A stretch of 64,000 nucleotides of DNA, taken from the NCBI RefSeq assembly GCF_013520865.1, contig NZ_JACDXJ010000001.1, forward strand, positions 4,387,501 through 4,451,500, read 5' to 3'. Position 1 is the stretch's first letter; the number at the start of each line of letters is the position of its first letter. The notes below the pieces were generated by a model. It was given only the letters and a program-made list of their open reading frames with translations, ran no database searches and had not been told where the DNA came from. Positions 1,732 through 40,113 of this stretch are shown here, one piece after another. This stretch comes from Microvirga mediterraneensis (GTDB lineage: Bacteria; Pseudomonadota; Alphaproteobacteria; Rhizobiales; Beijerinckiaceae). The position numbers were made by a program, and so were the translations under genes.

Positions 1732-4700
1732 TCAGAAGCGCCAGGTGAGGTTGCCCTTGACGGCGTGCTCCTGAGCCTGCGCGCCGATCTGGCCGGCATA
1801 GGCCACGCCCAGACTGATCGCGTCCGAGGCCTGCCAGTCGAGACCGGCTTCGGCCACCAGCGCATCCCGGTCCACCGGCGTACCCGCCACCGAAAAGACC
1901 GACGCCCCGCCGCCGAAGGCCAGCAGCGCCGCAGGCTCGACGTCGCCATAGGCATGGCGCCAGCCGAGCAGGCCGCGCGCCACCAGCGGCACCGTGTCGC
2001 TCAACCGGGCCTCGGCCCGCACGCCCAGCGTGGTGGTGGCCAGGGCGTGGACGCGGGCAGAGCCGGTCAGGGCCGCGGCGCCGCCGTCCTCGGCAAAGCC
2101 GTCCGTGTGCAGCCGCAGCACGGCGGCGCCGGCGAACGGCTCCAGCTGCACCGGCCCCAGGTCGATCCGATAGCCGGCCTCGCCAAAGGCCTGCGCGCTC
2201 CAGCCGTCATAGGAGGCGCCGGTCTGGTCGCGGAAGCCGGGGAAGCGGATGGCGCGGTTCACCTCGAGGGCATGCCCTGCAGAGGCCGCGCCCAGCCGCA
2301 GCGTGACCCCGCCCCAGGCGCCGGAGCCGTAGAGCGCGCCGAACACGCTCTCGGTGCGGCCCGACGCGAGGCGCCCGTCGATGTCGAAGCCGGTGCGGAT
2401 CAACCCGCCGGCCAGGCCGAGCCGGACCGCGTCGGCCACCGGAGCGTCGGCGCCGAGGATGAAGCCGCCGGTGGCGGTGTCGAGGCCGGCGGCGTTGCCG
2501 TTGGCGCCGGCCCGCCCCCAGGAGCCGAAGCCCTCGCCCCACAGGGCGAAGCGGCCGGGCGCAGGGGCGTCGGGCTGGGCCGGGCGGGCGGCCAGCGGCT
2601 GGCGCAGGCGCGTGAGAAGGCCGTTGCGCACCCGCTCGGCATCGCCCAGCGCGACACCCGCGGCCGTCGCATGCGCCTCCCCAGAAAGGGAATCGAAGGC
2701 GGTGCCCGCCTGATCTGCGGAAAGCAGCACGAGAGCCTCATAGAGGTCGTTGCCGAAACCCAGCATCTCGGTGGCAGCCGCAGCCGCTCGTGCATTGGGG
2801 CTTCCCGCAAGGGCGCTGAAGTCCACCTGATTTCTGGTCAACGTAAGATAGGCGTTGTGAGGGTCGTAAGAGAGCGAGGGAGTCAGGAAAGCAAGGTCGG
2901 ATGAGGCAGAGGCGAACCTGCCGGTGATCCCACCCTGGGCGCTCAGGATCGTGTGAGTGCTCCTCGCTCCATAGAGGCCCCGGACCGCTCGGACATTCAC
3001 CGTGCCACCCGAGAGTGTGGCCGCGCCCGTCGCAGCGATGAGATCGTGCGCGCCGTCTGCCGTCACATCGACCGTGTAGTTCGAACCGGCATCGAAGGCT
3101 ACGTTGCCGGCAACGTTGAGCGTGCCGGGCGAATAGCCGGGTGAGACGGTGCCGCCCTGCCTGACGATCAGTCCGCCGATCGTGCCTGAGCCGCCGATGG
3201 TGCCGCCCTGCTCGATCGTAAAGATCGAACCCCAGCGTGAATGGGGTGCGAGGTTGAAGGTACTTGCTTCCACCGAAACCGGGCCGGCGTAGCTCGTGCC
3301 GGTGAAATTCACCGTACCGCCGACAATCGCGAGCGATCCCGTTCCGGTGATGGACGCGTTGACGTCGTAGGTTCCGGAGCGGTTCAAGACCAGCGCGCCG
3401 TTGTTGACGATCGAGCCGGAGATGCTTCCCGATCTTCCGCCGTCGCCGATCTGGAGCGTCCCCTCTTCGATGACCGTGCCGCCTGCGTGGCTGTTGTTGC
3501 CGGTGAGGATGAGAGTCCCGCTGCCTTGCTTGGTGAGCGCCCCCGAGCCCGAGATCGATCCGGAATACGTGCCGGTATGGCCCTGATCGAAAATGAGGGA
3601 GGAATTGTTGGTGATGTTGCCCGAAAGGCTGGACGAATTCCCGATCAGCGTTCCCTGCGCGATGGTCGTGCCGCCGGTATAGTTGTTGTCGCCGGTGAGC
3701 GTGAGCCGGCCTGCGCCTTGCTTGACGAGTGCGCCGGCCCCGAGAACCGCTCCGCCGAAAGTGACGTCATCACGCCGGTTGAAAACCAGTGTGCCGTTAT
3801 TGGCGACGTCACCGAGGATCGACCCGCTCGTGCCGCCATCGCCGATCTGCAATGTACCGGCTGAGATGACGGTGTGGCCCGTATAGCCGTTGTCACCGGT
3901 CAGCGTCAGCTTGCCCGCGCCTGTCTTGACGACACTGCCTGGCATCAAGCCGTCGCCGATCACGCCCGATAAGGTGGCGGCCTGATCGGAACCTGTTGCG
4001 ATATCGATGTTGCCACTGAGCGCCATGGCGTTTGCGACATTGAGCTGATCTGCGCCAAATGAAAGCCTTGTGCCGTCGCGCGCATCGAGACGCCCTGTGC
4101 CAAGGGCATTGTTCGAGGCGAGTGTCAGGGTACCGGCTTGGAGCAAGGTCCCGCCGGAATAGCTGTTCGCTCCCGCCAGAACGATCGTGCCCGCGCCGAT
4201 CTTGGTGAGGCTTCCCGCGCCGGTGAGCGGAGCAGAGACCGTCGCGGTCGTTTGAGCACCCTCGGCCCAGAGGCGGCCGCCTCCGTCGAGAAGGAGCTCG
4301 CCCCCGCTGCCGGCCACGAGTTCGTAGCCCGACGTCAGAAATTCCAGCGTGCCGATCCGTTGGGCTCCCTCGACCGTGATGCGGCCTGCGGGACCGTCGA
4401 AGACACCAGTGCCGTTCAACCAGGAGCGCTGCCTGCCATCAGGTTCGAGCCACCGTGTCGCGCCGCTCCAGGTGCCGCTTCCACCTCTGTCTGCGCCATT
4501 GCCGCTCCAATATTGAAGCGCCGACCCGTCGCCTGTGACCAGGACATCCACCGTGCGTTCGCCGATATCGAGCCGCGTGACGACGTTCTCGATGGTGGGC
4601 GCCGAGCCGAGAGCCAAGCCCGCATCCGTCACGGTGTCGCTCGTGGAAAAGATCCGGTAGATGCCGGTGCCATAACCTCCACCGCCCGTCACATTGAGCG

Positions 4701-33871: not shown

Positions 33872-34377
33872 ACCCAACTCCAACATCCGATCCTTCGACT
33901 GGATCGCAAATCTCCCAGGCATCTCGACGATAGGAAATCTTTTTCTTGTGCAGGAGCAACAAGTTCGAAAGCGGCTCGTTCCAGCGCGAGTGACATCCAG
34001 CTGATTTTTGGCGTGTTACGGTTAAGAGATGAATAGCAAGCGCATGCAATCCACCATGAAGCCTTGAAACCGAAGGGTTCGATCCTATCTTATTCTCAAC
34101 CTGGCGGCACACTCGCTTGCCAGAAGCGGTCACGATGCCGAGATGATGACGCCGGATGTACGCGCATCATCTCGCCGTGGCCGTTGTTATTTGCGCAGAG
34201 CCTTCTAGTGACCGGCGCATTCGTCCGCTGCAGGGGAGCCCTCCACCGCCCGATAAGGACGCCGGCGTCTGGCAGCAATGACGACCTGATTGGTTATCGA
34301 ACAGACGCTTTCCACCATGACTCGCCTGGATAAGGCGTCAGGCCGCGTCCCAGGACCCCGATCTCCGTGGAGGCGGT
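33872..34377. other. Intergenic region, no gene seen
   Basis: About 500 bases between the receiver gene and the 3' side of the phenicol exporter. Open frames in it have no protein-like composition and overlap on both strands. No RNA gene was recognised. The left part is the promoter region of the receiver gene. Confidence 0.45.
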
Positions 34378-34402
34378 GTAGTCGGGCATGATGCCCGACT
34401 AC
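34378..34402 (-). terminator. Stem-loop after the phenicol exporter
   Basis: GTAGTCGGGCAT and its exact complement around one base, eight bases after the exporter's stop codon. As RNA it forms a stable hairpin; no U run follows, so it may act as a weak terminator or a 3' stabiliser. Confidence 0.5.
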
Positions 34403-34410
34403 ACGTTGGA

Positions 34411-35610
34411 TCACGTCCGCAGACGGTCTCGGTCATGCAGCCATCCCTGCGCAATCAGGACGACGACGGCCATGATCGAGGAGAAGGTCGCAAGCGGCCA
34501 TGCGGTATCGCCGCGTAGCCAGATCACGGCCAGCGTTCCACCGATGCTGACGATGAGGCTCTGCACGCAGAAATACAGCGCCACCGCCGACCCGGCGATG
34601 TCCCCGAACTCCTCCAGGGCTCCGTTCGCCGTCACCGACCCGGTGAAGACGATGCCGATCGCCATGACCCACATAGGGACAATGAACGTCCAAAAGGATG
34701 GGTTTCCGAACACCTGTCCGATGCTCAGGAGCCCTGCGCCCAGGAGCAGCATCGCCATGCCGCGCGCAAGACTGCCGGAGGTTCCCCACCGGGCCACGAA
34801 CCGCTTGGCGAAGCGTGTCGTCATGATCATCACGACCGCAGCCGTCGCGAAGGCGAGGCTGAATTCCAGCTCGGAGTACCCGGCCCTGTCGATGAGGACG
34901 CTTGGAGCGGTCGAGAAGAACACGAAGAACGTCCCCATGGCGGCACTGAACCCGAGCGTATAGGTCCAGAACGCAAGGCTGCGGAGGACAGGCAGGAACG
35001 AGCGTCGTGACAGGGTGGCTCTTCTCGGCCGGGTCTCATGCCAGCGGAGCTGAGCTTGCAGGGTCGCGAGAACGGCAAGAATACCCAGGACCACGAAGAT
35101 CGAGCGCCATCCGAAGCTGTCCGCGAGAAGTGCCCCGGCGATGGGCCCTAACGCAGGCACGAAGGCCAACATGGAGCTGAACAGGCTGTAGATCACCACG
35201 CTTTCCGGGCGGTCGGCATACACGTCCCGGACTGTCGCGAAGGTGGCCACCATGGCTGCCGAGGCCCCGACCGCTTGCAGGAAGCGGAGGGCGATAAAGG
35301 GAACGGCGGTCGAGGATGCCGCCAGGCAGAATGACGCCGCCGCGAACAGGATCGCGCCGCTGACCAGAACGGGCCGCCGTCCGAAGCGGTCGGAGACCGG
35401 CCCGAAGATGATCTGGCCGAGCCCGAGCATCACCATATAGATGCTCAAGGTAAGTTGGACGATGGCCGGGCTGGTGCCGAGAATGCCCGGCATGGCCGGA
35501 ACGATGGGGAGATAGATGTCCATCGCCAGGGAAGCGAGGATGTCGAAGGGGGCCATCAGCAGGAGGGCCGTTGGCAGGGAATAGGCCCACACGGGGGGCT
35601 TTGGAGACAT
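34411..35610 (-). CDS. floR: Chloramphenicol/florfenicol exporter, FloR/CmlA-type MFS
   Basis: A 399-residue twelve-helix drug/proton antiporter (DHA1). Recalled FloR sequence matches it closely along its length: the N-terminal LLLMAPFDILASLAMDIYLP, FGPVSDRFGRRPVLVSG after helix 2, GTFFVFFSTAPSVLI and VTANGALEEFGDIAGSAVA. FloR is 404 residues. It exports chloramphenicol and probably florfenicol from the cytoplasmic membrane. The start at 35610 lacks a strong ribosome site, which fits translational attenuation by the upstream leader. Copies on mobile elements are common, but here no mobile genes flank it. A broader Bcr/CflA drug range is possible. Confidence 0.8.
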   Translation of the reverse strand: MSPKPPVWAYSLPTALLLMAPFDILASLAMDIYLPIVPAMPGILGTSPAIVQLTLSIYMVMLGLGQIIFGPVSDRFGRRPVLVSGAILFAAASFCLAASSTAVPFIALRFLQAVGASAAMVATFATVRDVYADRPESVVIYSLFSSMLAFVPALGPIAGALLADSFGWRSIFVVLGILAVLATLQAQLRWHETRPRRATLSRRSFLPVLRSLAFWTYTLGFSAAMGTFFVFFSTAPSVLIDRAGYSELEFSLAFATAAVVMIMTTRFAKRFVARWGTSGSLARGMAMLLLGAGLLSIGQVFGNPSFWTFIVPMWVMAIGIVFTGSVTANGALEEFGDIAGSAVALYFCVQSLIVSIGGTLAVIWLRGDTAWPLATFSSIMAVVVLIAQGWLHDRDRLRT

Positions 35611-35642
35611 AGTGAGGCATCCGCTCAAATGAGGAACATTCG

Positions 35643-35729
35643 GCGGCGGTCTGCCTGTCAGCATAGGCTGGGATCGGTTCGACAGACGCCGCAACAACAA
35701 GAAAAGGGTTGTTGCGGCTTACTTGTCTG
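35643..35729 (-). promoter_or_regulatory. Attenuator with mutually exclusive hairpins in the floR leader RNA
   Basis: On the minus-strand RNA, directly after the leader stop codon, GCCGCAACAAC (35718-35708) pairs exactly with GUUGUUGCGGC (35698-35688), nine-base loop. This stem extends by CAGAC (35729-35725, inside leader codons 7-8) with GUCUG (35687-35683). The right arm can instead pair with CAGACCGCCGC (35653-35643), ten pairs and one bulge. A ribosome stalled on the leader would cover the first arm and favour the second structure. This is the layout of cmlA- and cat-type attenuation. Effect on the exporter's ribosome site is inference. Confidence 0.65.
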
Positions 35730-35748
35730 CGGACTTTTGGGCTCCCAT
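35719..35748 (-). CDS. Nine-codon leader peptide MGAQKSADK for floR attenuation
   Basis: ATG GGA GCC CAA AAG TCC GCA GAC AAG TAA, with GGAG seven bases before the ATG. It has the length and C-terminal pattern of the known cmlA leader MSTSKNADK (recalled), whose translation stalls in the presence of chloramphenicol. It ends immediately before the first arm of a hairpin and 108 bases before the exporter's start codon. The KSADK ending, the ribosome site and the position all agree, so the reading is strong although the peptide is tiny. Confidence 0.75.
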   Translation of the reverse strand: MGAQKSADK

Positions 35749-35911
35749 GCCACGACTCCAGGTTCATACGAGGTTAGAAGAGAACCGGTTGAGTATCATG
35801 TTGATCTGGAGCCGACAATCCTCGCAGGATCCTCGCGACGAATTCGTCTAAGCCTGCGGCGAGTTTGCGATGGGAGGAGATTGAGAGTCGCGTTCGCTAT
35901 CGAATGCTGCA

Positions 35912-35939
35912 AAAAACGCCGGCTTTCGCCGGCGTTTTT
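35912..35939. terminator. Bidirectional rho-independent terminator
   Basis: AAAAACGCCGGC and its exact complement form a 12-bp stem with a TTTC loop. It follows the stop codon of the envelope-stress operon's last gene (35964) by 24 bases and has T runs in both directions. Confidence 0.88.
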
Positions 35940-35963
35940 CATCTCGGTTCAGCGGTTCATGCG

Positions 35964-36674
35964 TTAGTGGCGATTGGCATCGCGCTGGCCGTTGAACTCG
36001 CTCTCATGCCGGCTGAAACGCGCTTCGTCGCCGCTGAAGGTATCCTCGACATATTCGCGACCACGGTTGGCGGCGTCGCGGGCATAGCGCAGGCCCTGGC
36101 TGCGGACCTCGTCCGCCCATTCGCCGAACATCTCGTTCTCGCGACGGGTGCGCGGCAGCAGGGCGCCCAGGAGAAGGCCCGCGGCCAATCCCACGAGGCC
36201 GACGACCATCGGGTTCTCGGACACGTAGCTCTGGACGCCGCCACGGGCATTGCCGAAGGCGCGAGCGGAACGACCGCCCATCTGGTTCATACGGCGGCGC
36301 TGCCCCTCATAGGTGTCCGAGGCCCAATGCGAGGCGCGGTCATAGGTGTCGCGCGCCCAATCGGAAGCGCCTTCATAGGCTTGCTCCGCCTTCTGCCGAG
36401 CCTGATCGGCAGCCTGCTGGGCCTTGTCGGAGATCGACCCGCCCTGATCCTGCGCATTCTGCTGTGAGGACTGGCCCTTCGGCTGGCCAGATGTCTGCTG
36501 GCCGCCGGTCGCGCCGGAGCCTTGAGCATTGGAGCCTTGGGCAGAGCGCTGCTCATGGGCATGCGGCATGGGCGGCTCGCCGATATTGCCCACCGACGTC
36601 CCGGCGGAAACATTCCCTGTCGCGCCCGACTGGGCTCCGCTCGGCTTGCCGGTTTCGTTCTTGCTGTTGGCCAT
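35964..36674 (-). CDS. Gln/Gly/Ser-rich membrane-anchored stress-type protein
   Basis: About 236 residues. A disordered N-terminal half rich in Ser, Gly, Gln and Asn (1-85) is followed by an amphipathic Ala/Gln/Tyr-rich stretch (about 85-135; KAQQAADQARQKAEQAYEGA), a single membrane segment with Gly/Leu repeats (about 155-180; MVVGLVGLAAGLLLGALLP) and a charged tail. This fits the ElaB/YqjD/DUF883-like pattern of membrane ribosome-binding or stress proteins, but only the architecture supports that. It is the last gene of a four-gene minus-strand cluster. GGAG precedes the ATG at 36674. Confidence 0.6.
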   Translation of the reverse strand: MANSKNETGKPSGAQSGATGNVSAGTSVGNIGEPPMPHAHEQRSAQGSNAQGSGATGGQQTSGQPKGQSSQQNAQDQGGSISDKAQQAADQARQKAEQAYEGASDWARDTYDRASHWASDTYEGQRRRMNQMGGRSARAFGNARGGVQSYVSENPMVVGLVGLAAGLLLGALLPRTRRENEMFGEWADEVRSQGLRYARDAANRGREYVEDTFSGDEARFSRHESEFNGQRDANRH

Positions 36675-38551: not shown

Positions 38552-38636
38552 CCTTTTTGCTCTCTAGGCCATTACTAAAACGTTTGATAGTATTGATACA
38601 ACAATTAACCTTGGGTTGAATAGCTTTGTTTGGGAG

Positions 38637-39380
38637 ATGCCCTTGAGTGGCTGCGCCTTCGACCATGCGACGGAAGCCTTCGCCTTCATCGACAGCCTCG
38701 ACAGCCTAACCGGCCCGGACGACGTGGTGGAGGCGGTCGCCCGGACTTTCTCTTTGTTCGGCTTCGAGAATTTCATCATGACCGGACTGCCGAACCCCAA
38801 GGAGCGTTTCGAACAGGTCGTCCTGCTCAAGAAGTGGCCCATGGGCTGGTTCGACATCTATGCCAAGCATGATTACGTAAGGTCCGACCCCATCATTCGC
38901 CTCTGCAAGAACACCACCCAGCCCTTCGAGTGGTCGGAGGCGCCCTTCGATCGGGCGACGGAGCGGAAGGCCGCCGAGGTCATGGACCGGGCCACGGACT
39001 TCCGGATGCGGGACGGCTTCTGCCTGCCCATTCATGGGATCAACGGCTACGAGGCCTGCTTCTCCATGAGCGGTGTGGACCTGGACCTCTCCCCGCGGAC
39101 GAAACCCGCGCTCCACCTGATGGCCATGTACGCCTTCGAGCGCGCCCGTCGGCTGCTCGAGCCCCAGCCGCCAGTCGTCCCGAGCCTGCTCACGCCTCGC
39201 GAACGCGAAGCCCTGATCTGGGCCGCCGCAGGGAAATCGGCGGCTGATACGGGCGAAATCCTCGGGATCACGGAGCGCACGGTCACGGCCCACATCGTCA
39301 GTGCATGCCAGAAGCTCGAGGCGGTCAACAAGACCCAGGCCGTGGCGCGGGCTCTGCAATACAAGCTGATCCGGCTGTGA
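38637..39380 (+). CDS. LuxR-type autoinducer-binding regulator
   Basis: About 247 residues. The acyl-homoserine-lactone domain occupies about 15-165, with the signature Trp, Tyr, Asp and Pro in KKWPMGWFDIYAKHDYVRSDPII and Trp in FEWSEAPF. The LuxR helix-turn-helix is at about 180-240 (LTPREREALIWAAAG; ITERTVTAHIVSACQKL). It should bind the signal made by the adjacent luxI. Starts are ambiguous: a TTG at 38616, the ATG at 38637 used here, or a TTG at 38643 behind GGGAG six bases upstream. Confidence 0.88.
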   Translation: MPLSGCAFDHATEAFAFIDSLDSLTGPDDVVEAVARTFSLFGFENFIMTGLPNPKERFEQVVLLKKWPMGWFDIYAKHDYVRSDPIIRLCKNTTQPFEWSEAPFDRATERKAAEVMDRATDFRMRDGFCLPIHGINGYEACFSMSGVDLDLSPRTKPALHLMAMYAFERARRLLEPQPPVVPSLLTPREREALIWAAAGKSAADTGEILGITERTVTAHIVSACQKLEAVNKTQAVARALQYKLIRL

Positions 39381-39471
39381 CGTCTCACCTGTAATTTCCT
39401 ACAATATCTTTCTTCCGTCGGACGCGGGAAGACTTCTCCACCAAGCAAGAATGGAGGGGGAGCTGCATCCG

Positions 39472-40113
39472 ATGACGAAAATCCATGTGATCCGCAGAGA
39501 TAACCAGCATTTATACGAAGCTTCGCTAGAGGAATACTTTCGTCTCCGGCACGAGGTCTTCGTGAGGGAGCGTGGATGGCGCAACCTGCATCGCCTCGAC
39601 GGACGGGAGATCGATGCCTACGACAACGACAACGCGGTTTATCTCCTCGCCATCGACCAGGACCGGGTCGTGGGAGGCCAGCGGCTCTATCCGACGGTTC
39701 TGCCCCACATGCTGAGCGAGGTCTTCGGCCACATGGCGCAGCGGGGCATCCCCCGGGCCGACCGCATCTTCGAGTGGACGCGGTACTTCGTCGTCAAGGA
39801 AAGGCGCATGGGGCGGACGGATTGCCGCCTTCTCGCGGCCGTGCAGGAGTTCTGCCTCGAGGAAGGCATCACGGAGCTCACGGCGGTGGTCGAGATGTGG
39901 TGGCTGCCGCGCTGGCAGCAGGCCGGCTTCAAGGTGAAGCCCCTGGGCCTGCCGACCGTGATCGAAGGCCAGCCCTGCATCGCGGCGGCGATCACGGTTT
40001 CACGGGAGAGCCTGGAGCAGGTTCGCCGCCTTGCCGGACTGCGCGGATCCATGCTCCTCCGCAATGCCCAGATGTCTCCTGTCCTTGATCGGGTGCCCCA
40101 TGTCGCTGCCTGA
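39472..40113 (+). CDS. Acyl-homoserine-lactone synthase (LuxI family)
   Basis: A 213-residue autoinducer synthase that joins an acyl group to S-adenosylmethionine. The family's invariant residues are visible: FRLRHEVFVRERGW (Arg24-Trp36), DGREIDAYDNDNA with Asp49 and Asp51, VVGGQRLYPT (Arg71) and FEWTRYFV with Glu and Arg. The start at 39472 follows GGAGGGGGAG; a further start seven codons upstream has a weaker site. It lies 91 bases after luxR and overlaps a small downstream gene by 14 bases. Confidence 0.92.
   Translation: MTKIHVIRRDNQHLYEASLEEYFRLRHEVFVRERGWRNLHRLDGREIDAYDNDNAVYLLAIDQDRVVGGQRLYPTVLPHMLSEVFGHMAQRGIPRADRIFEWTRYFVVKERRMGRTDCRLLAAVQEFCLEEGITELTAVVEMWWLPRWQQAGFKVKPLGLPTVIEGQPCIAAAITVSRESLEQVRRLAGLRGSMLLRNAQMSPVLDRVPHVAA

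Follow-up and report, generated by a model that had tools for sequence, protein, structure and literature searches.

A probable phenicol-responsive translational attenuator with four RNA segments ahead of a chromosomal CmlA/FloR-family exporter in Microvirga mediterraneensis

In the attenuators of catA/cat-86 and fexA, a ribosome stalled by a phenicol within a short leader frees the ribosome site of the resistance gene. In trp-type attenuators a stalled ribosome sets the choice among alternating 1:2, 2:3 and 3:4 pairings. The gene floR is a common determinant of florfenicol resistance.

The cmlA attenuator, with its alternative stem-loops, is well established (PMC8876359). Its leader belongs to class 1 integron cassettes (Stokes and Hall 1991, via PMC8876359, PMC11190716 and PMC5890775), is arrested by chloramphenicol when Asp8 occupies the P site and Lys9 the A site (PMC11190716), and has been counted among the attenuators that overlap the ribosome site (PMC5890775). 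Ahead of floR, an ORF of nine amino acids and a perfect 11-bp repeat are conserved on many plasmids and ICEs, and floR RNA is raised by chloramphenicol (PMC5890775). An attenuator has likewise been described before floR variants, with leaders of 6-9 amino acids; florfenicol or chloramphenicol raised floR-T2 RNA strongly and floR-T1 RNA slightly (PMC8256890). The ribosome site of floR lies outside the stem-loop (PMC5890775, PMC8256890), whose part in induction has been called unclear (PMC8256890). The attenuator type itself is not new, since the cmlA examples are classic and reports on floR date from 2017 and 2021; the suggestion in an earlier sequence-only reading of the present locus, that no such leader had been described for FloR-type genes, therefore falls (PMC5890775, PMC8256890). 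Among the matches listed in open-licence PMC, no description was recognised of a third and fourth RNA segment for floR or of a rule for residue -1 in the leaders, and no paper was found there on attenuators with Sinorhizobium or with Microvirga.

The window, that is, the whole stretch of 64,000 nucleotides analysed, carries the following features of a leader of this kind and its exporter.

35756..35759, minus strand: GGAG, the likely leader ribosome-binding site, read from the sequence
35719..35748, minus strand: leader ORF MGAQKSADK*, nine codons (ATG GGA GCC CAA AAG TCC GCA GAC AAG TAA)
35708..35718, minus strand: segment 1 (arm 1), GCCGCAACAAC, starting at the base after the leader stop
35681..35698, minus strand: segment 2, GTTGTTGCGGC (arm 2, 35698-35688) plus GTCTGTC, from pairing, folding and covariation
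35643..35655, minus strand: segment 3, GGCAGACCGCCGC, from pairing, folding and covariation
35621..35631, minus strand: segment 4, CATTTGAGCGG, at the exporter translation-initiation region, before the exporter ATG at 35610
34411..35610, minus strand: CmlA/FloR-family exporter of 399 amino acids (NF033134, 646.9 bits, cut-off 450)

As in the cmlA and floR systems, a short ORF with its own ribosome site lies 5' of a phenicol exporter, and Microvirga and Sinorhizobium relatives have GGAG-like sites in the same position. Segments 1 and 2 form a perfect 11-bp hairpin with a loop of 9 nt, so the sequence itself bears out the earlier description of a nine-codon frame with its own ribosome site that ends at such a hairpin. 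If the edge of a stalled ribosome is taken to lie at +15, a stall at codon 8 would cover the first 7 nt of segment 1; by sequence and predicted folding this is an inverted repeat with a first arm that a stalled ribosome could cover. Segment 3 can pair with segment 2 or, together with the CCGAATG that follows it, with segment 4, which contains a weak Shine-Dalgarno match. The 4-bp complementarity between CCGC and GCGG noticed in the sequence-only reading is real, and is lengthened by further AATG/CATT pairing. The 171-nt region folds with a z of -4.32, and none of 200 shuffles folded as well.

A covariance model, R1, was built from 52 leaders, the window's own among them. In a scan of the whole genome (G000) it gave a single strong site, the window's, at 71.1 bits; the next matches were the opposite strand of the same hairpin (25.0 bits) and one of 17.8 bits. 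A search of Rfam release 15 over 34000-36600 returned no match above the gathering score, the four sub-threshold matches all lying in 35904-36006, outside the leader. A catA-type attenuator, in which the stem overlaps the ribosome site, was ruled out because arm 2 ends at 35688 and the exporter ATG stands at 35610. A transcriptional terminator within the leader was discarded because no T run stands behind either hairpin and a terminator scan lists none in 35600-36000, which is a weak negative, as the same scan passes over an evident terminator-like hairpin near 35912-35940. No promoter was listed by a consensus promoter scan; by eye, a TTGTC...GATAAT-like pair is seen upstream in several Microvirga relatives.

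The locus shares with cmlA the nine codons, the KxADK* end, the hairpin directly after the stop, the alternative stem-loops and the family of the exporter, as judged from alignment with the cmlA1 copy L003 (MSTSKNADK*), in which 65 nt separate the end of hairpin 1:2 from the exporter. It differs in that the two exporters are 48% identical, cmlA segments 3 and 4 have another sequence, and cmlA sits on an integron cassette whereas the window's gene is chromosomal. With the putative floR attenuator it has in common the ORF of nine amino acids and the 11-bp inverted repeat, and the mobile floR copy L001 has a leader of the same type (MGNSKSADK*). In contrast, the floR reports, in the excerpts used, present a single stem-loop, without segments 3 and 4, and floR copies on plasmids or ICEs (PMC5890775, PMC8256890). 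The proposed stall in a short leader, freeing the start of a resistance gene, resembles catA/cat-86 and fexA. Their attenuators are reported to overlap the ribosome site (PMC5890775), whereas the window hairpin ends 77 nt before the exporter (arm 2 end 35688, ATG 35610). The four segments, the alternating pairings and the control by a stalled ribosome recall the trp type; unlike there, the window's last helix would mask translation initiation and has no T run behind it.

The exporter is not a FloR allele in the strict sense (NF000219), for which its 605.9 bits fall under the curated cut-off of 700. It is chromosomal, on a 4.7-Mb contig within a genome of 5.35 Mb. Among the best 80 of 365 relatives, the nearest named exporters come from Microvirga (L017, 89% identity over residues 1-398; L023, 93% over residues 1-381), and rhizobia and Microvirga account for many of the named hosts. 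Within the genus the exporter is accessory, being found in 11 of the 48 genomes searched, the window's own included. Elsewhere in the window lie a UvdE-type UV endonuclease gene (PF03851; 32431-33537) and, at 38616-40113 on the plus strand, genes for a LuxR-type regulator (PF03472, PF00196) followed by an autoinducer synthase (PF00765), which are likely to be a quorum-sensing pair.

The distribution of the leader was surveyed with 152 exporters chosen by protein: a plasmid search gave 3 mobile genes, contigs of named genomes gave the best 80 of 365 relatives, and whole genomes gave 69 that scored above the NF033134 cut-off. Distant Bcr/CflA exporters lay outside the scope of this survey. The whole-genome and named collections overlap, and the 152 therefore contain duplicates; 98 are non-redundant. 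The window's own locus (L009) was dropped before counting and the weak paralogues L012-L016 were omitted; the window, L008, and L004-L007, which entered by leader DNA, stand outside the 152. A leader of the same kind precedes 150 of the 152 exporters, or 96 of the 98, which answers the sequence-only reading's proposal that such leaders be sought before other floR and cmlA genes. Of these leaders 148 were found by script, and L161 and L163, which the finder misplaced or missed, by eye. The two exporters that have none are L087 and L128. L087 is a floR gene from Flavobacterium kayseriense whose upstream DNA looks different from that of the other copies. The paralogues L010 and L011, kept as controls, have no such hairpin.

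On plasmids, leader and gene occur about equally often, with matches to each counted separately and not as adjacent pairs. Most of the floR leader query was present in 2,219 records and most of the floR 5' half (its first 500 bases) in 2,244 of 72,556; for cmlA the figures were 1,208 for the leader and 1,125 for the 5' half, or 1,212 and 1,217 when any match was counted. With R1 run under stricter filters on 337 genomes of the class, taken whether or not they carry the exporter, the best match outside G000 reached 27.5 bits. Fifteen R1 matches lay outside, and at the nine inspected in their immediate surroundings (L171-L178, L185) no leader was seen; the other six were weaker. One of the nine, L178, reads KSADK* and has no nearby in-frame start. 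None of 36 pattern matches in viral contigs was a relative.

Several individual loci were observed along the way. In L040, L050, L146, L101 and L155 the distance from hairpin 1:2 to the exporter is about 30 to 75 nt above the median of 78 nt, with the leader still conserved. In L054 (a Comamonas testosteroni record) and L107, the cmlA1-type peptide MSTSKNADK precedes a floR2-type hairpin and exporter; by their sequences these loci look as if two attenuators had recombined within the shared leader-stem sequence. On a Pseudomonas plasmid (L008, around 3000-3317) the leader MGASITADK persists before a short floR fragment, beside blaAFM-2.

Next, the leaders were compared at the presumed site of arrest. 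Published work on the sequence context of chloramphenicol action indicates that Ala is preferred at position -1, Ser and Thr less so, that Asp at position 0 and Lys at -3 help, and that Gly at 0 or +1 leaves almost no inhibition; linezolid has the same context dependence (PMC11832420). Here the P-site codon was set by geometry, as the codon that ends six bases before the GCCG stem, with the spacing taken from the canonical GAC AAG TAA GCCGC; because this spacing was fixed from canonical leaders ahead of the count at -1, it is a definition and not a result. The window leader has K5 at -3, A7 at -1, D8 at 0 and K9 at +1, with no Gly at 0 or +1. By analogy with cmlA, a ribosome would stall on it when its P site has reached D8 and its A site K9, with A7 at -1 and K5 at -3.

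Across the family, every one of the 150 leaders of the protein-selected exporters has Ala, Ser or Thr as residue -1 (103 Ala, 41 Ser, 6 Thr), as do all 101 of a non-redundant set that includes the window and L004-L007 (64, 31 and 6, respectively). On a quick exporter tree, which leaves out L008 (a truncated floR) and L046 (whose approximate start yields no protein), position -1 of the 101 leaders changes at least 14 times and never leaves these three residues. In the same set position -2 takes seven residues in 18 changes, and position -3 takes K, P, E, H, V or I in 17. Position 0 is Asp in 84 of the 101 and otherwise T, V, A, S or R, and none of 156 leaders has Gly at 0 or +1. By a rough estimate only about a third of the single-base replacement changes from these codons would remain within Ala, Ser and Thr, so that drift is unlikely to have kept all 14 changes there. 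The stop codon is not fixed: it falls in the A site in L113 and L132 and comes later in L033, L039, L163, L164 and L165. These leaders still obey the rule at -1 with the same spacing, and in L033 and L039, where the stop after codon 9 is lost, ribosomes would cross the hairpin. Together, the family-wide counts at -1 and for Gly fit the published chloramphenicol rule. They also refine the sequence-only comparison with cmlA: the likeness in length and in the KxADK end is present in L003, but KxADK as such is not kept in the family, in which the Lys at -3 and the last Lys both vary, the Ala/Ser/Thr at -1 is constant and position 0 is mostly Asp.

The three helices were then examined in an alignment (A2) of 51 diverse leaders out of 99, from which stretches longer than 150 bases and near-duplicates were omitted. 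Pairing of segment 2 with segment 3 excludes both 1:2 and 3:4, whereas 1:2 and 3:4 could coexist. Standard pairs occupy 98.8% of the cells for 1:2, 89.9% for 2:3 and 85.1% for 3:4, and double changes occur at 3 of 11, 7 of 12 and 5 of 9 pairs, respectively. For each helix neither the covariation score nor the percentage paired was reached by any of 500 shuffles, and both were lower in every slid version. The number of double-change pairs is less discriminating, being reached by 37 (1:2), 1 (2:3) and 53 (3:4) of the 500 shuffles, and slid versions sometimes had more double-change cells (3:4 slid by +1, 19 versus 18; 2:3 slid by -1, 20 versus 15). RNAalifold on the 51 leaders predicts 1:2 only and no 3:4.

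Folding was carried out on 99 of the 101 non-redundant leaders (L161 and L163 out). The median predicted cost of opening the exporter start falls from 12.8 kcal/mol in the free RNA to 7.4 when segment 1 is covered, and is lower in the covered state in 97 of 99, the exceptions being L124 and L164. When the leader was removed and segment 1 left intact the median was 11.9 kcal/mol, above the covered state in 96 of 99; scrambling segment 2 in the stalled state brought it back up to 10.8, above the unscrambled value in 94 of 99. As the ribosome advances, the median goes from 12.0 at three codons short of the stall codon to 10.6 at two and 7.4 at one and zero. Pairing of the start region with segment 3 drops from a median of 0.53 to 0.18 (falling in 84 of 99), and the mean unpaired probability of the start region rises in 82 of 99, by median only from 0.38 to 0.44. 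Mean 2:3 pairing exceeds 0.5 in 50 of 99.

Against shuffled linkers, p < 0.05 was obtained for 2:3 in 54 and for 3:4 in 57 of the 99. Such per-sequence tests are too weak alone, and the case is weighted on conservation and covariation. In the window, covering segment 1 lowers the predicted opening cost from 12.0 to 6.2 kcal/mol and raises the mean unpaired probability of the start region from 0.45 to 0.57, with p values of 0.03 (2:3) and 0.005 (3:4). By prediction the start is less costly to open once the first arm is covered, the comparison that the sequence-only reading had proposed. Its two structural claims, that the second hairpin arm can pair with a downstream segment and that the exporter start may be masked without drug, are strengthened by the covariation of 2:3 and 3:4 and by a pattern kept far beyond the window.

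For the mobile floR copies L001 and L002 the tests are not significant (3:4, p 0.70 and 0.64; 2:3, p 0.15 and 0.10), and cmlA1 (L003) gives p 0.29 for 3:4. Opening is scarcely eased in L002 (7.7 to 6.6) and in L054 (11.3 to 10.4). Among floR-like copies the predicted change lies below the median of 5.5 kcal/mol in L001, L002, L054 and L080, and above it in the Rhodobacter plasmid copy L007. In these models, support for the four-segment arrangement is weak in the two common mobile floR copies folded, L001 and L002, and because both miss significance the explanation is weakest for the very floR genes where the question arose.

Taken together, the conservation of the leader, the rule at -1, the three covarying helices and the falling opening cost make a translational attenuator that responds to phenicols and uses four RNA segments a very likely reading of the window element. 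The rise of floR RNA with phenicols in two studies (PMC5890775, PMC8256890) agrees with it, though those inductions were seen at RNA level and floR-T1 rose only slightly; the leaderless exporters L087 and L128 and the lost stop of L033 and L039 count against it. The reading is based on sequence, conservation, covariation and predicted energies, and from them we infer the leader arrest, the induction and the switch in vivo. Without drug, the nine-codon leader would be translated to its end and the ribosomes would leave; the 1:2 hairpin would form, and segment 3 would be free to pair with segment 4, masking the exporter initiation region. With chloramphenicol or a relative, a ribosome would arrest once codon 8 (Asp) is in its P site, with Ala at -1, and would cover segment 1, so that segment 2 could pair with segment 3, segment 4 would be released and the exporter translated.

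A stalled ribosome might instead act chiefly on the transcript, by protecting the mRNA or preventing an early stop of RNA polymerase, with the hairpins secondary. The published floR inductions, which were measured as RNA (PMC5890775, PMC8256890), would agree with this, but the initiation region is where segment 4 is found, covariation is seen in 2:3 as well as 3:4, no T run follows either hairpin and no terminator is listed in 35600-36000 (a weak negative), which together leave such an action improbable. There is a somewhat better, though still small, chance that the natural signal is another inhibitor of the peptidyl-transferase centre, or a natural product, with the same preference at -1. 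The context dependence that linezolid shares (PMC11832420) and the many rhizobial and Microvirga hosts among the best 80 of 365 relatives speak for it; against it, family model NF033134 is named for chloramphenicol efflux, and Asp at 0 and Lys at -3 are the published helpers of chloramphenicol itself (PMC11832420). A different signal would in any case be compatible with the attenuator reading. It seems very improbable that this genome has merely inherited the element as a relic and makes no use of it now: two exporters (L087, L128) do without a leader and the exporter is accessory in the genus, but residue -1 has stayed within Ala/Ser/Thr through at least 14 changes and the pairings covary.

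Beyond the window, the data lean towards a wider reading of the translational attenuator, in which the four-segment switch is ancestral and near-universal in the CmlA/FloR exporters of Proteobacteria, chromosomal lineages were the source of the switch in mobile cmlA and floR, and residue -1 is kept by selection within the very Ala/Ser/Thr set that permits chloramphenicol binding. Confidence in this was lowered a little, to somewhat above even, in view of the non-significant tests on L001 and L002; the reading of the window element, which concerns the window, is unaffected.

Ribosome profiling and structures gave the context rule for chloramphenicol, and the strict rule at -1 supports it independently, from evolution. 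The pairing among four segments shows a route by which a hairpin some 80 nt upstream could control the exporter start, and the comparative evidence yields a specific and cheaply testable proposal for floR induction. If the switch is indeed ancestral, the action of the floR attenuator on a ribosome site lying outside its hairpin would be accounted for, and the leaders would record selection by phenicol-like drugs in soil.
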